From positions 1 through 43,010 of the forward strand of contig QKEI01000151.1 in assembly GCA_003251795.1 (NCBI GenBank): a DNA stretch of 43,010 nucleotides, in the 5' to 3' direction. Positions 28,178 through 35,966 of this stretch are shown piece after piece. Made by a program: the position numbers and the translations under genes. A model generated the notes under the pieces. It was not told the origin of the DNA and did not search any database. It saw nothing but the letters and a program-made list of their open reading frames with translations. Origin of the DNA: Candidatus Muproteobacteria bacterium. GTDB taxonomy: Bacteria > Pseudomonadota > Gammaproteobacteria > Acidiferrobacterales > SPGG2. Positions within the stretch are counted from its first letter, which is position 1, and each line of letters begins with the position of its first letter.

Positions 28178-30406
28178 ATGCGCATACTAAGCCAGGCTCT
28201 CATCTTTCTCGGCATACACCGAGCTAACGCACTCGACGCATTGACTGCGAGCCTGGCGACGTCGTGCCTAGCCTTGAGCGCCTGTATTTCCTATCCGACA
28301 CTGATCTTTTCTGCTGACCTTGCGCAATACTACCCCGCCGGCCTCGGCCTCGCCCTGGTCAGCGCTGCGATTGTCGGTACCACGATTGCAGCTACGAGCT
28401 CATATACCGGTTCGGTAGCTTATGTCCAGTCGCAACCGGTGGTGGTCATTGGCGTGATTGCAAGCTCGATTGCTGCAACCTTACACGCGGCGGGTATGGA
28501 CGATCGTATTCTGCCGAATGTGCTCGTGTTGATCACCTTGTCTTCATTATTGTTAGGTCTGGTGTTCGCGCTATTCGGAAAATTCAGGTACGGCGATCTC
28601 ATCAGATATATCCCGTTTCCAGTGATAGGCGGCTTTCTTGCGGCGATCGGTTGGGTGTTGACCCGGGCATCGTTCACGGTAACGACCGGAATCAACGCCA
28701 CCACCGAGCACATCCTTTTGCTGTTTCGCTACGATGAGGTACTGCGCTGGGCGCCGGGCATATGTTTGGGTGCGGCCCTGTGGTATTTGCAACGCTGGCG
28801 CGTCAACCGGTTCAATCTGCCGGCAATCTTGCTCGGATCGGTGGTGTTTTTTTGGATTGTCGCGTTCGCCGTTGGTCGATCGCCACCTGCGCTTGCGGAA
28901 GCGGGATGGCTCATCGGACCGTTGCCGCAAGGTCACCTGTGGACGCCGGCACGTCATATTGCGGCACTCGCCAACGCCGATTGGTGGTTGTTCCCCAGAG
29001 AGATCATCGGTTTCGGCACCCTGCTGGTGTTGTCTTCGGTCTCGCTACTGCTGGCCGCCAGCAGCGTCGAGCTCGCAGTCCGGGAGGACATCGACCTCAA
29101 TCAGCAGCTACGTGTCGCCGGTGTGGCCAATCTCTTGGGCGGTCTAGCGGGAGGATTGCCCGGTTACCAGGGGCCCGGCCCCTCGATTCTAACCAGCCGC
29201 CTGGGTGTGCCAGTACGTTTCGTCGGTCTCAGCACGGCGCTGGTGTGCCTTGCGGTACTGCTATTCGGTACCTCGTTTCTCTCATATGTGCCAAAAATGA
29301 CCGTCGGGTTGGTGCTTTTCTATACAGGGCTGGGATTACTGGTCGAGCAGCTGTATCGGAGCTTTTTCCGCATGACCAGCGGTGATTATCTGGTGCTTGT
29401 GACCGTATTCCTGGTCTCGGTTTTTGTTGGTTTTATGGAAGGGATCGGCGTTGGCGTAGTGTTTGGCCTGATTATCTTTGTAATCAAGTACAGTCGCGTC
29501 GGGGTTACGCGCCGCGTGGCCTCGGGCTCGGTACTGCACAGTAACGTTGACCGTCCCGAGAATCTAAGAGAGGCGCTGAAGCAATCGGGCGACCAGATTT
29601 TGACGATGACACTTCAGGGATACATCTTTTTCGGGACAGCTAACAAGCTCGTGAATGCGATCAAGGAACGAATCGCGGCAGCGGAACAACCGGCACTTAC
29701 ACATTTGATTCTGGATTTCTCGTTGGTGAATGGTCTGGATTCATCTGCGCTCGCGAGCTTCACAAAAATGGCGCAGTATTCCGAGCTGCATGATTTCCGC
29801 CTGGTGTTATCTAACCTTGCGGACGAGACTAAGGCACTATTGCGGCGCGAACACATCTACGAAGGCGAACACAAGAACATTCGGGTGTTTCCCGATTTGG
29901 ACCGTGCGCTGGAATGGAGCGAGAACGAAATACTCGCCAAGCAAGAACTACTGGTGTCCAGTTTGCTCGTGCCGATCGAAGCAACGCTGGAGAGTATTTT
30001 CCCGGAAACTGTGGAAGCCCAGGAGTTCCGTTCGTTCCTTGACTCGTTCGACTTCGTGAAGGGTGATGCGTTGATCCAAGAAGGCGCAGAATCAGACGAC
30101 CTTTTTTTCATCGAATCAGGGCAGGTGATGGTGGTGCTGGCGCTGCCAGACGGAGCCGAAATGCGCCTGCGGACCATGGATGCGGGAACGGTGGTCGGTG
30201 AGATCGCGTTCTATCTCGGGTTGCCACGCTCCGCCTCCGTGATCGGATCTGAACGCGGGCGAGCTTACCGGTTATCGCGTGAAAGCCTGGCCAAACTACG
30301 TAGCGAAAAGCCGGAAATGGCTGCAAGATTCCACGAATACATGGCACGCATGCTGGCCGACAAGTTGTTGGACACCACGCGTCTATTGAGCGTGCTCAAG
30401 ACTTGA
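28178..30406 (+). CDS. SulP anion transporter fused to STAS and cNMP-binding domains
   Basis: A 742-residue inner-membrane protein. Residues 1-435 are the SulP transport core with about 12-14 segments (SQPVVVIGVIASS, GLPGYQGPGPSIL, FMEGIGVGVVFGLIIF). A STAS domain is centred near 510 (HLILDFSLVNGLDSSALASF), followed by a Crp-type cyclic nucleotide-binding domain from about 610 to 730 (DALIQEGAESDDLFFIESGQV, GTVVGEIAFYLGLPRSAS). The canonical RSA motif after the glycine loop that holds the phosphate is present as PRSAS. The fusion suggests gating by cAMP or a similar nucleotide. The anion (sulfate, bicarbonate or other) cannot be told. Confidence 0.92.
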   Translation: MRILSQALIFLGIHRANALDALTASLATSCLALSACISYPTLIFSADLAQYYPAGLGLALVSAAIVGTTIAATSSYTGSVAYVQSQPVVVIGVIASSIAATLHAAGMDDRILPNVLVLITLSSLLLGLVFALFGKFRYGDLIRYIPFPVIGGFLAAIGWVLTRASFTVTTGINATTEHILLLFRYDEVLRWAPGICLGAALWYLQRWRVNRFNLPAILLGSVVFFWIVAFAVGRSPPALAEAGWLIGPLPQGHLWTPARHIAALANADWWLFPREIIGFGTLLVLSSVSLLLAASSVELAVREDIDLNQQLRVAGVANLLGGLAGGLPGYQGPGPSILTSRLGVPVRFVGLSTALVCLAVLLFGTSFLSYVPKMTVGLVLFYTGLGLLVEQLYRSFFRMTSGDYLVLVTVFLVSVFVGFMEGIGVGVVFGLIIFVIKYSRVGVTRRVASGSVLHSNVDRPENLREALKQSGDQILTMTLQGYIFFGTANKLVNAIKERIAAAEQPALTHLILDFSLVNGLDSSALASFTKMAQYSELHDFRLVLSNLADETKALLRREHIYEGEHKNIRVFPDLDRALEWSENEILAKQELLVSSLLVPIEATLESIFPETVEAQEFRSFLDSFDFVKGDALIQEGAESDDLFFIESGQVMVVLALPDGAEMRLRTMDAGTVVGEIAFYLGLPRSASVIGSERGRAYRLSRESLAKLRSEKPEMAARFHEYMARMLADKLLDTTRLLSVLKT

Positions 30407-31941: not shown

Positions 31942-32250
31942 ATGGCTATTTCTGATCAGGACTTGTCAGATTTCGATCAGGCGGCGGAGCAAGCCGTCGC
32001 CCTCGGCAATCGCCTGTTAGAACAGAGCGAAGACGCGGATCAATGGGAAGTTGCCTCTGGATTACTGGCAGGGGCGGTGCAGTTCTGGTTATACACGCGC
32101 CAGCCCTGTGGTGACCCGTTGTGTGAATCCTGCGGCGAGGTCGATTCGGCCGAGAAGAGAATGCGCAAATTACTCGAGGAATTGACAAGCTCGGCGGAAG
32201 AGAGCGAGTACTATCATTCGCCGAATGATGCGAACGTGGGCCGCGCCTGA
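31942..32250 (+). CDS. Small acidic protein with CxxxxCxxC motif
   Basis: A 102-residue soluble protein, acidic and helical, with one cysteine cluster CGDPLCESCGEVD (about 56-68) that could bind a metal or form a disulfide. No family is recognised. The ATG follows GTGTGACAAACA without a good ribosome site. It might be a partner of the downstream membrane operon but is 370 bases away. Confidence 0.55.
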   Translation: MAISDQDLSDFDQAAEQAVALGNRLLEQSEDADQWEVASGLLAGAVQFWLYTRQPCGDPLCESCGEVDSAEKRMRKLLEELTSSAEESEYYHSPNDANVGRA

Positions 32251-32619: not shown

Positions 32620-33465
32620 ATGACCAAGACACTTACCCAGGAAGGGAGGGCACGGCCCATGGAATCCACAGCGGTGACGAGCCGCTCGCAGCATTGTGAG
32701 GCGTTGCCTCGCAGCCATCTCAACGATCTCTACGCCCACATGTCCCCAATCGCCCCACGGATCGACACGAACCGGCCAACCCAGGCGTTGCCGGAGCTCG
32801 CCGCGTGGTTGCTCAATATGGTACGGAGCCAGTCGCAGGATCCACACCGCTATCTGCTGGTTCTGCGATTCGTGTTGCTCAATCTCGTGGGGTTCGCCCT
32901 GCTCGGTGCTGCCTATGTGCACGGGCTAGTAGGCATGGTAATCACCGCCGACCGTACGTACCTGTCGGTCTTGATCTTCTTGGTATTTGTCGGAGGTCTC
33001 GGCATCTGCACACGCAAAGTCTGGCAGACAAGCCGCGAGCTCAATAGTGTGCGCGAATCTGGCACCGGGAGTGAAGCGGCAGCGATGCGCCACCTGGCAC
33101 CGATGCTTGGGCGTACCGCGGAAAGCCGGGCAAACCTTGCTGGAGCTGTGCGTCTGCGCCTTTCGCATCGTATTGCGATCGTACGCAACATCGCCAACAG
33201 CCTTGTACTGCTCGGGCTCATCGGTACTGTGCTCGGCTTTATCATTGCTCTCTCGGGCGTCGACCCCGAGCGTGCCGCAGACATTAGTGCGATCGCACCA
33301 ATGGTTTCTACGCTTATCAGCGGAATGTCAACCGCACTCTACACTACACTGGTCGGCGCAGTTCTAAATGTTTGGCTGATGGCCAACCATCAATTGTTAG
33401 CAGGTGGCACGGTCAAACTGATCGCCGCGTTAGTCGAGCGGGCAGAAGACCATGCGCGAGGTTGA
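32620..33465 (+). CDS. MotA/TolQ/ExbB-like proton channel protein
   Basis: A 281-residue inner-membrane protein with four likely segments at about 82-105, 114-131, 194-212 and 228-254. The last two and their linker (LVLLGLIGTVLGFIIAL, MVSTLISGMSTALYTTLVGAVLN) carry the hallmark of the TolQ/ExbB/MotA family. These form pentamers around a dimeric partner and use the proton gradient to drive motion. A long polar N-terminus (1-75) and an insert between segments 2 and 3 are unlike plain ExbB. ATG 32659 with GGGAGG is an alternative start. It overlaps the next gene by 14 bases, indicating translational coupling. Confidence 0.85.
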   Translation: MTKTLTQEGRARPMESTAVTSRSQHCEALPRSHLNDLYAHMSPIAPRIDTNRPTQALPELAAWLLNMVRSQSQDPHRYLLVLRFVLLNLVGFALLGAAYVHGLVGMVITADRTYLSVLIFLVFVGGLGICTRKVWQTSRELNSVRESGTGSEAAAMRHLAPMLGRTAESRANLAGAVRLRLSHRIAIVRNIANSLVLLGLIGTVLGFIIALSGVDPERAADISAIAPMVSTLISGMSTALYTTLVGAVLNVWLMANHQLLAGGTVKLIAALVERAEDHARG

Positions 33466-34081
33466 TCTATTCGATGACGAAAGCGGAGCCACCGTGTTCC
33501 GCGACGTCATCATGTTGGCGCTGGCTGGTTTCGTCACGCTGGTGTTGCTGCTGTTGCCACACCTTAATCCGCGCGCGAAGACCGAGGATGCGATCCGCAG
33601 CCCCGGTAATGTCATTATCGAAGCGCGCTGGCCGGATGAAATGGATGCCGATGTGGATCTTTGGGTACAGGCTCCAGGCGACGTACCGGTCGGCTACTCA
33701 AACAAGGGCGGCGCGGTGTTCAATCTCTTGCGCGACGATCTCGGCCACACGGCGGATCTGACCGGCTTGAACTATGAGTTTTCCTACAGCCGCGGCGTAC
33801 CCGCCGGCGAATACGCGGTAAACGTGCACCTTTACCGTAACCACGAGAGCAGCACGATTCCGGTCTCGATCGTCGTCAGTGTGAAAGGTTCGGTAAACGA
33901 ATCGGCTAAACAACTGCTTGCTACTAAAGTCACCTTGGAGCACGAGGGACAAGAGCTCACCGCCTTCAGGTTCAGGCTTGATGATAAGGCGCGGCTGGTA
34001 AGTGGCAGTGTGCACGATCTTCCCAAGTCATTACGTACAGCACAGGCGGCACACCCGGATCGTCAAGGACGTCGACCATGA
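33452..34081 (+). CDS. ExbD-like stator subunit with DUF2135/YfaP-like domain
   Basis: A 209-residue protein with one membrane segment at about 16-38. Its start FRDVIMLALAGFVTL aligns with the ExbD/TolR helix, including the essential aspartate (D18). The C-terminal region is not an ExbD periplasmic domain: DADVDLWVQAPGD with SNKGGAVFNLLRDDLGH and PAGEYAVNVHLYRNH fits the DUF2135/YfaP-like beta-sandwich. It should hang in the periplasm. It overlaps the channel gene by 14 bases and the next gene by four (ATGA). The pairing suggests a proton-driven transducer with an unusual output domain. Confidence 0.75.
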   Translation: MREVDLFDDESGATVFRDVIMLALAGFVTLVLLLLPHLNPRAKTEDAIRSPGNVIIEARWPDEMDADVDLWVQAPGDVPVGYSNKGGAVFNLLRDDLGHTADLTGLNYEFSYSRGVPAGEYAVNVHLYRNHESSTIPVSIVVSVKGSVNESAKQLLATKVTLEHEGQELTAFRFRLDDKARLVSGSVHDLPKSLRTAQAAHPDRQGRRP

Positions 34082-34608
34082 GTCTAGTGTTTTATTTGTT
34101 CGCTCTGTCGCTCGGGTTGGCGACCGTGCTGGCCAGTATTTGCATTTGGTCGCCACGCGCCGTCTGGTTGAAAGTCGGCGCGCTCGTGATCGCGCTGTTA
34201 TTTCTGCCGACCACCTATGTCAGTGTGGTCGAGCTGTTAAGTCGGCCAAAGCCGATAGCCCTCGAATGGAAGCAACCCGACTTCTCTGAAGCCAAGGTGC
34301 TCGCTGCGGACATGCGAGAGGGCGAAAGCATTTATCTGTGGTTGAGAATGCCCGGGGTCGAAGAACCCCGGTTCTACGTGCTCCCCTGGGATCAGGAACT
34401 TGCCAAGCAACTCCACGGCGCCCAGCGTGACGCGAACGCACAGGGAACGGCGGTGCATGCCAAGAACCTTTTCCGGACCAATCGCGATCCCCAGCAACCG
34501 ATGTTCTATGCCATGCCGCAACCGGCGCAACCGCCCAAAGTGCCTCCGGTTTACGATCCTTTGATTTTCGAATCTGGAGCCAGGCAGCTTCGCCACGACG
34601 GCATCTAG
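34078..34608 (+). CDS. Membrane protein of the proton-channel operon, unknown
   Basis: A 176-residue protein with two N-terminal membrane segments (about 1-25 and 28-52) and a soluble C-terminal part of 120 residues. The C-terminal part has LYLWLR-like and RFYVLPWDQELAKQLHGAQRDA segments and a Pro-rich tail (PQPAQPPKVPPVYDP). I do not recognise the family. The start overlaps the stop of the ExbD-like gene as ATGA, so it is translationally coupled and almost surely part of the same complex or process. Confidence 0.75.
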   Translation: MSLVFYLFALSLGLATVLASICIWSPRAVWLKVGALVIALLFLPTTYVSVVELLSRPKPIALEWKQPDFSEAKVLAADMREGESIYLWLRMPGVEEPRFYVLPWDQELAKQLHGAQRDANAQGTAVHAKNLFRTNRDPQQPMFYAMPQPAQPPKVPPVYDPLIFESGARQLRHDGI

Positions 34609-34794
34609 CCTTGATACTCTCGCATTTCTAATCACCGTTCGTGACCGGCGTTGGCCATGGCGGCGATGGTATAACGACAACGAGTCGCGTACAGTGTGCC
34701 GTTGAGCTCTCCTGGGCACGGGAATGCTCGGTTCACTTCGTGCCTTTTTATTGCTGCCGGGATTGTTTTGTCGTCATGCCCGAGTGCCGTTAAC

Positions 34795-35046
34795 GTGAGA
34801 TGTGCGGTCTACAAGTCACGCCGGCGGGCTAACACCTACCTCTATATTGAAGCGGAGAACGACTTCCGGCGCGTGCCGCAGGCGCTTTTGCACATGCTCG
34901 GTACCTTGGAGTTAGTGTTGACGCTGGAGTTGGACACGCGCCGGACGCTCGCCCAGGCCGATCCGCAGGAGGTACGGCGGCAGTTGCTGGAGCAAGGCTA
35001 TTACTTGCAACTGCCTCCCGGCGATTTTCCAGCAGCGTCCAGCTGA
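34795..35046 (+). CDS. ycgL: YcgL-domain protein
   Basis: An 83-residue YcgL-domain protein, with CAVYKSRRRANTYLYIEAENDF, the hydrophobic stretch VPQALLHMLGTLELVLTLEL and the late motif VRRQLLEQGYYLQLPP. The family is small, soluble, of unknown function, and largely gammaproteobacterial. The start is GTG 34795, where family proteins begin (MRCAVYK); the frame upstream to 34696 is not family-like. In many genomes rnd is a neighbour; here it is not in view. Confidence 0.88.
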   Translation: MRCAVYKSRRRANTYLYIEAENDFRRVPQALLHMLGTLELVLTLELDTRRTLAQADPQEVRRQLLEQGYYLQLPPGDFPAASS

Positions 35047-35153: not shown

Positions 35154-35966
35154 GTGATTTCCCCAAAAAGCGATGACCTAGCGACGCAGCGGTTGGACGT
35201 CGACAGCTTTCCGGATTTCTACCGGAAACTGATACGTTTGCGGTTCCCCCTTGACGTCGCGGAGGTCATCGATCTACGCGATATCATTAACCAGTCCGCG
35301 GACCACTTCAGCGAACCTGCAGCGACAGCGGAACATCGTCGATTCGTGGACGCCGTGCGCTCGGAAATCGAAACACTTGGTGTCGACCGACAAGACCACC
35401 GGGCGAAGATCATCCACATTCTCGTCATGTTACGCTGTATGCATCAGGCGCACCGTGCGACGGCGCGAACGGCAGTGCGCGCGTTGTGCCGCCGTCAACA
35501 GGCTAACCGTAAGGCCCGGCGGCTATCTATAAGATATGGGGTGTTGTTGCTGGTGGCGGCGATCATCGGCCTGTTTGCCTGCCTCGCGATTGACGATGTG
35601 GCCTGGCCGGTTGAAGCCGCTACCGTGCTAGTTGGATACCTGGCGTTCGATTACTTTTTTTCGCTGACGGTGCTGTCCCAGGACTACACGCGCCTTGCTC
35701 AGGCATTGGAACGGCTGCGCGGCGAGCAAGTACGTCATTTCGAGTGGCGTACTCTAGCAAAGCACGTTGCGCTAATTCTCGGCTACACACACCGATTCGC
35801 AACCGAGCCTTTTCTTGTTAGCGCCGACGACGATGCTGTCAGTAAGCAGCGTAGCCTGCGTTCGGCCTGGCGCTTCAAGTTTCCGCGACTCTCCAGCAAA
35901 GCGATCAAAGCGGATGCGTTTGCGCTGTCGTATCGTCTCCGGTCAAATCCTCCGAAACGGGCTTGA
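35154..35966 (+). CDS. Predicted membrane protein with two segments
   Basis: A 270-residue protein with a helical, basic N-terminal domain (1-120), two membrane segments near 129-145 and 153-175 (LLVAAIIGLFACL and ATVLVGYLAFDYFFSL), and a basic C-terminal domain. The family is not recognised. The start GTG 35154 is uncertain. The 3' end overlaps the convergent Dph6-like gene by 62 bases, so one of the two ends may be misjudged; both frames look coding. Confidence 0.6.
   Translation: MISPKSDDLATQRLDVDSFPDFYRKLIRLRFPLDVAEVIDLRDIINQSADHFSEPAATAEHRRFVDAVRSEIETLGVDRQDHRAKIIHILVMLRCMHQAHRATARTAVRALCRRQQANRKARRLSIRYGVLLLVAAIIGLFACLAIDDVAWPVEAATVLVGYLAFDYFFSLTVLSQDYTRLAQALERLRGEQVRHFEWRTLAKHVALILGYTHRFATEPFLVSADDDAVSKQRSLRSAWRFKFPRLSSKAIKADAFALSYRLRSNPPKRA

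Follow-up and report, generated by a model that had tools for sequence, protein, structure and literature searches.

We report three overlapping genes, here called A, B and C (Table 1), which likely encode one inner-membrane machine belonging to the class of ion-driven motors with a 5:2 subunit arrangement. They lie in the window, i.e., the whole 43,010-nucleotide stretch of DNA that was analysed. In particular, the coupling of the genes, the conservation of the unit, the homology of A to known channels and the topology of the proteins are established here, as are a conserved acid and conserved threonines and a kinship of the B domain with DUF2135. As to the wider proposal, namely that A-B-C represents an undescribed class of 5:2 motors with a beta-sandwich axle and a two-transmembrane partner, which does a periplasmic job apart from those of the Ton, Tol, flagellar, gliding and Zorya systems, is carried by approximately 15% of the sampled alphaproteobacterial genomes, very small ones included, and entered one gammaproteobacterial family by at least two acquisitions, we consider the case to be evenly balanced.

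To our knowledge, rotary ion motors have only a few outputs, namely outer-membrane import, envelope upkeep, swimming, gliding or secretion, and phage defence, and we know of no beta-sandwich domain on motors of the flagellar-stator, Ton or Tol type. If A-B-C is indeed a widespread motor with a different shaft domain, one more output would be added to this list, and the DUF2135-like domain would gain a mechanical setting. What is more, since Azospirillum and Tistrella carry the operon, the proposal can be tested by deletion and by single-residue changes.

Table 1. Features of the A-B-C locus, in positions of the window.
Feature	Position	Strand	Length	Description
Gene A	32620-33465	+	281 aa	four-transmembrane MotA/TolQ/ExbB-type channel protein
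Gene B	33452-34081	+	209 aa	axle-like subunit; one membrane helix, then beta-sandwich
Gene C	34078-34608	+	176 aa	two-transmembrane membrane protein with small alpha/beta domain
Codon GAC of B Asp18 (FRDVIMLALAGF)	33503-33505	+		putative ion-binding acid in the helix of B
DUF2135-like beta-sandwich of B (aa 53-176)	33608-33979	+		AF2 model, hhalign

Results

Gene coupling and conservation of the unit

A sequence-only reading of the window had taken the three genes to be coupled by overlaps, and this was borne out with exact coordinates: A and B share 14 bp, while B and C share 4 bp (ATGA). The exact 14-bp overlap recurs in 66 of the 86 loci compared, and a B/C overlap of either 4 or 1 bp is seen in 52 of them. 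In addition, dN/dS is well below 1 for A, B and C alike, with values of about 0.05-0.17 in three of the four pairs compared and of 0.25-0.35 in the remaining pair. Given the recurrence of the A/B overlap and the low dN/dS of all three genes, the overlaps are not a matter of chance. Matches from a promoter and terminator scan of the locus were not above chance.

The three proteins also co-occur in relatives, in line with the same reading. Namely, a family profile matched 176 relatives in public genomes. Of these, 80 loci were retained, and all 80 have A, B and C together; incomplete cases lie at contig ends (e.g., L059), and the sole change of order is A-C-B in L056. Most deep relatives keep A-B-C, some of them in genomes near 1 Mb, and in some deep relatives C is absent or unrecognisable. 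Across 385 alphaproteobacterial genomes, B was detected in 59 and C in 41, with C matches adjoining B matches and C occurring only beside B; all of the latter but one (40 of 41) carry B as well, the exception (G785) being a contig-edge fragment. Finally, the pairwise distances of the proteins are correlated (0.73 for A-B, 0.80 for B-C and 0.59 for A-C), with none of 500 permutations giving values as high, it being understood that common ancestry alone yields some correlation.

Approximately 100 loci were inspected for their surroundings, and no conserved partner gene was found near A-B-C, nor were flagellar genes seen as recurrent neighbours. What does recur there are generic ABC-transporter ATPases, regulators and synteny at the level of the genus only. 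The suggestion that the operon serves polysaccharide or outer-membrane transport finds no support in this comparison, in which no neighbour gene is conserved.

In the window itself, all on the + strand, a YcgL-domain protein (PF05166, E 2.3e-29) is encoded immediately downstream of the operon (34696-35046), and further on lies a 270-aa protein (35154-35966) with no family over cut-off; 18 of 20 relatives have a counterpart about 30% identical to it, and the host has a further copy on C273. On the other side, a 102-aa protein with the motif CGDPLCESCG and without a family match (31942-32250) recurs at 51-75% identity in 6 of the 20 relatives searched, host not counted; it is a real, unnamed gene whose position relative to A-B-C is not fixed. 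Judged by eye, the 742-aa product of 28178-30406 is a transporter resembling sulfate permeases, its ends being STAS-like and cyclic-nucleotide-binding-like.

Gene A, a channel of the MotA/TolQ/ExbB superfamily

The proposed TolQ/ExbB-like channel was confirmed, in that A scores above the cut-off of Pfam MotA_ExbB (PF01618; E 2.7e-8, 34.1 bits against 22.9) and so do 63 of the 63 relatives scanned (E<=0.001). Hydropathy over 63 relatives gives four membrane segments, with a short cytoplasmic loop between the second and the third; four is the number in MotA, and ExbB and TolQ have three. By profile, the nearest solved relative is MotA 8gqy (E 3.8e-5), followed by ZorA, TolQ, ExbB and PomA. An apparent 1000-aa A protein in L080 merely reflects an upstream open frame, the start being normal.

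Two threonine motifs stand out in A, namely GLIGTVxGF in TM3 (here GLIGTVLGF), with the invariant T203, and ALYTTLVGA in TM4, with the invariant T243; G202 and G246 are likewise invariant. Both motifs align with the corresponding ones of MotA 8gqy. Motor function in PomA depends on T158, T185 and T186, and Na+ binding on T158 and T186 together with D24 of PomB (PMC6677748). The threonines of A would presumably correspond to those of PomA residue for residue.

Gene B, an axle-like subunit with a beta-sandwich

Hydropathy finds a single hydrophobic segment in B, and residues 12-38 are helical in the AF2 model (pLDDT 87). Asp18, near the start of this helix, is kept in 87 of 87 B proteins. Most deep relatives have Asp in that column too (types FRD, FYD, FTD, FQD and FLD), and a distant subgroup with DPLGVMLF or DPYTVMLF has none there and carries one three residues earlier. 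Of the ExbD-like subunit originally claimed, the single helix and its Asp thus stand, but no family match accompanies them. Namely, ExbD/TolR (PF02472) does not match B, and hhalign of B against an ExbD profile gives E 0.004-0.007, which is no better than shuffles, although it sets D18 on the ExbD Asp unprompted, if weakly. With the comparison at shuffle level, homology of the helix to ExbD is not proved by sequence, and no profile shows B to be homologous to ExbD, TolR or MotB. The ExbD-like reading of B is a topological one, which draws on topology, on the Asp and on the linkage to A.

Residues 53-176 of B, which a linker joins to the helix, are modelled as an all-beta sandwich, and the alpha/beta periplasmic fold of ExbD and TolR is not found there. 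The sandwich carries the motifs DVDLWV (67-72), LLRDDLG (92-98) and RGxPxGEYxVNxH (114-126), of which DVDLW and RDD, along with Glu109, could form a metal site. In Pfam, DUF2135 (PF09906) stays below its gathering score for B (14.6 against 22 bits, E 0.035), and 21 of 74 B relatives match it at E<=1, with a best value of 0.0028. Profile-profile comparison by hhalign with a DUF2135 profile of 12 proteins, E. coli YfaP among them, gives E 3.2e-6 for the B family and 8.9e-9 with distant B proteins added, these E-values referring to single comparisons; in the controls, unrelated profiles gave E 0.25-0.91, and 60 column shuffles reached 3.1e-3 at best. In other words, the DUF2135-like domain of the earlier reading is seen by profile-profile comparison and lies under the Pfam threshold, and on these alignments we regard the kinship as real but remote.

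Other searches with B added little. A structure search of the PDB with the model returned nothing at E<=0.001, where PAD4 and DUF4425 were set aside as weak matches to generic beta-sandwiches; a PDB sequence search gave nothing useful, and no curated family of Pfam, NCBIfam or PADLOC matches B above cut-off. An identity with the TPH-vWA transducers was rejected as well, the B model being a beta-sandwich and no vWA match being found in Pfam.

Gene C, a two-segment membrane protein

C is indeed the third two-segment membrane protein that had been described, coupled to B: the AF2 model (pLDDT 85) places two helices, at residues 2-24 and 29-55, and hydropathy likewise gives two membrane segments. 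Beyond them, where LLS/GRPKP is conserved past the second segment, follow an alpha/beta domain (aa 71-145) and a Pro-rich tail. Lys or Arg is conserved at positions 27, 28 and 32, between the two helices, and by the positive-inside rule the alpha/beta domain is therefore probably periplasmic. No family of Pfam, NCBIfam or PADLOC matches C over cut-off, and neither a PDB sequence search nor, at E<=0.001, a fold search returned a solved relative.

Distribution and host copies

Rhodospirillales and related alphaproteobacterial MAGs supply most of the best-matching records; some others come from Mesorhizobium and from gamma- and betaproteobacterial MAGs. An even draw of 398 Pseudomonadota has the operon in 16 genomes, and in 60 genomes of relatives, host included, it is confined to the host's own family (4 genomes). 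The host carries a second, diverged A-B-C (G000 C218, L002:801-2615) with a B protein 52% identical, which is also present in two relatives. The B tree puts the window copy in a gamma/beta clade (support 100/95) and the second one among alphaproteobacterial Magnetovibrio-type sequences (support 100/100), and given these different placements the two were probably acquired separately. Outside the A-B-C copies, the host genome contains three further channel genes of the ordinary kind, all of them paired with ExbD.

Some loci depart from the usual gene content. Tandem B genes occur in L183 (6991-8251) and L186 (5758-8332), so that not every relative would have a simple homodimer of B, and it is possible that these variants form hetero-dimeric axles like those of ExbD pairs. 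Two C genes are present in L200 (6751-9327). The operon is also found in public records labelled Nitrospira (L012) and Patescibacteria (L069), where B of the latter groups weakly with Geminicoccaceae; it looks as if these labels are wrong or the bins mixed. Azospirillum plasmid records have no annotation at the A-B-C site.

Discussion

A proposed mechanism and its alternatives

The 5:2 arrangement is established for MotAB, ExbBD and TolQR (PMC12215075), and for A-B-C we infer this stoichiometry, as well as the flow of ions, the rotation, where C sits and what target, if any, lies in the envelope. Five A subunits would form the channel ring, with two B helices in its centre and Asp18 facing the A threonines T203 and T242/T243. 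Protons (or Na+) flowing past Asp18 would then move A around the B dimer, and the motion would reach the periplasm through the DUF2135-like beta-sandwich, in the place taken elsewhere by the ExbD/TolR or the OmpA-like domain. C would be a dedicated partner, whose two transmembrane helices probably lie against the ring of A subunits, in the manner of TonB and TolA, and whose periplasmic domain and Pro-rich tail may hold, gate or read out the domain of B. One can find only one functional hint in the literature, and an indirect one: in Azospirillum flocculation, FlcA up-regulates some gene of the MotA/TolQ/ExbB family (PMC4264754).

Would the same observations be explained by a device that does no mechanical work? 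The A/B channel could be an ion-flux sensor or gated leak, opened by a ligand or metal on the B sandwich together with C, with proton entry serving as the signal. Such a device would fit the putative metal site, the lack of both a long trans-periplasmic arm and a peptidoglycan-binding domain, and the lack of a conserved outer-membrane partner gene nearby. However, flux is coupled to motion in the characterised members of the superfamily, and no signalling gene is constantly linked to the operon, so we regard this explanation as unlikely.

We give still less credence to the idea that A-B-C is a diverged but otherwise ordinary ExbBD/TolQR set powering TonB or TolA, even though its gene order mirrors tolQ-tolR-tolA and A is of the same superfamily. 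Three ordinary channel/ExbD sets are already present in the genome; B escapes PF02472 and has a beta-sandwich without a PDB match at E<=0.001; C, with its two transmembrane segments and short domain, resembles neither TonB nor TolA; and A has one membrane segment more than ExbB and TolQ. As for a Zorya-like anti-phage device, the weak ZorA matches of A (best E 8e-6) span only 50-70 residues of the ZorA models, i.e., the shared TM3-TM4 core, the long ZorA tail is missing, no PADLOC model matches B or C, no constant neighbour is fit as an effector, and the operon tracks chromosomal lineages over many families, all of which makes this reading very improbable. The ion-driven motor, most likely powered by protons, is the reading we prefer.

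Comparison with known systems

In the literature searched, DUF2135 is named nowhere and YfaP has no functional paper, and the passages found on motors do not describe an A-B-C unit. Two surveys, in the passages found, call the diversity of such motors under-described and make no mention of DUF2135 or A-B-C (PMC12505986, PMC12204202). The second of these describes vWA proteins that are paired with TolQ and have a transpore helix bearing the ExbD-type Asp (PMC12204202), which is the closest published idea. There, too, a TolQ-like channel stands beside an Asp-helix protein with a different periplasmic domain, and a TolR/ExbD gene is missing from the pair. A-B-C differs from the vWA pairs in the DUF2135-like output domain of B, in B being usually single rather than paired, in the dedicated two-transmembrane third gene and in the four transmembrane segments of A.

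With MotAB and PomAB, A-B-C shares the four-transmembrane channel subunit and the Asp in the axle helix, MotA 8gqy being the nearest by profile; unlike them, it has a channel subunit with a short cytoplasmic loop and no torque-generating domain, and its B lacks the OmpA-like peptidoglycan domain. TolQRA and ExbBD-TonB have the same order of channel, axle and third membrane protein, with an Asp where the axle helix begins, but differ in the periplasmic fold of the axle, the architecture of the third protein and the number of transmembrane segments of the channel. Finally, B and E. coli YfaP (DUF2135) share a colinear core (W..., DxDLWV, P.., Y.N, GG, Glu, PGxYxV), whereas YfaP has no motor helix and stands in an operon with YfaS, YfaT, YfaA and YfaQ. 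On these likenesses and differences, we file A-B-C under the 5:2 motors, and not as an ExbD, Zorya or vWA system.
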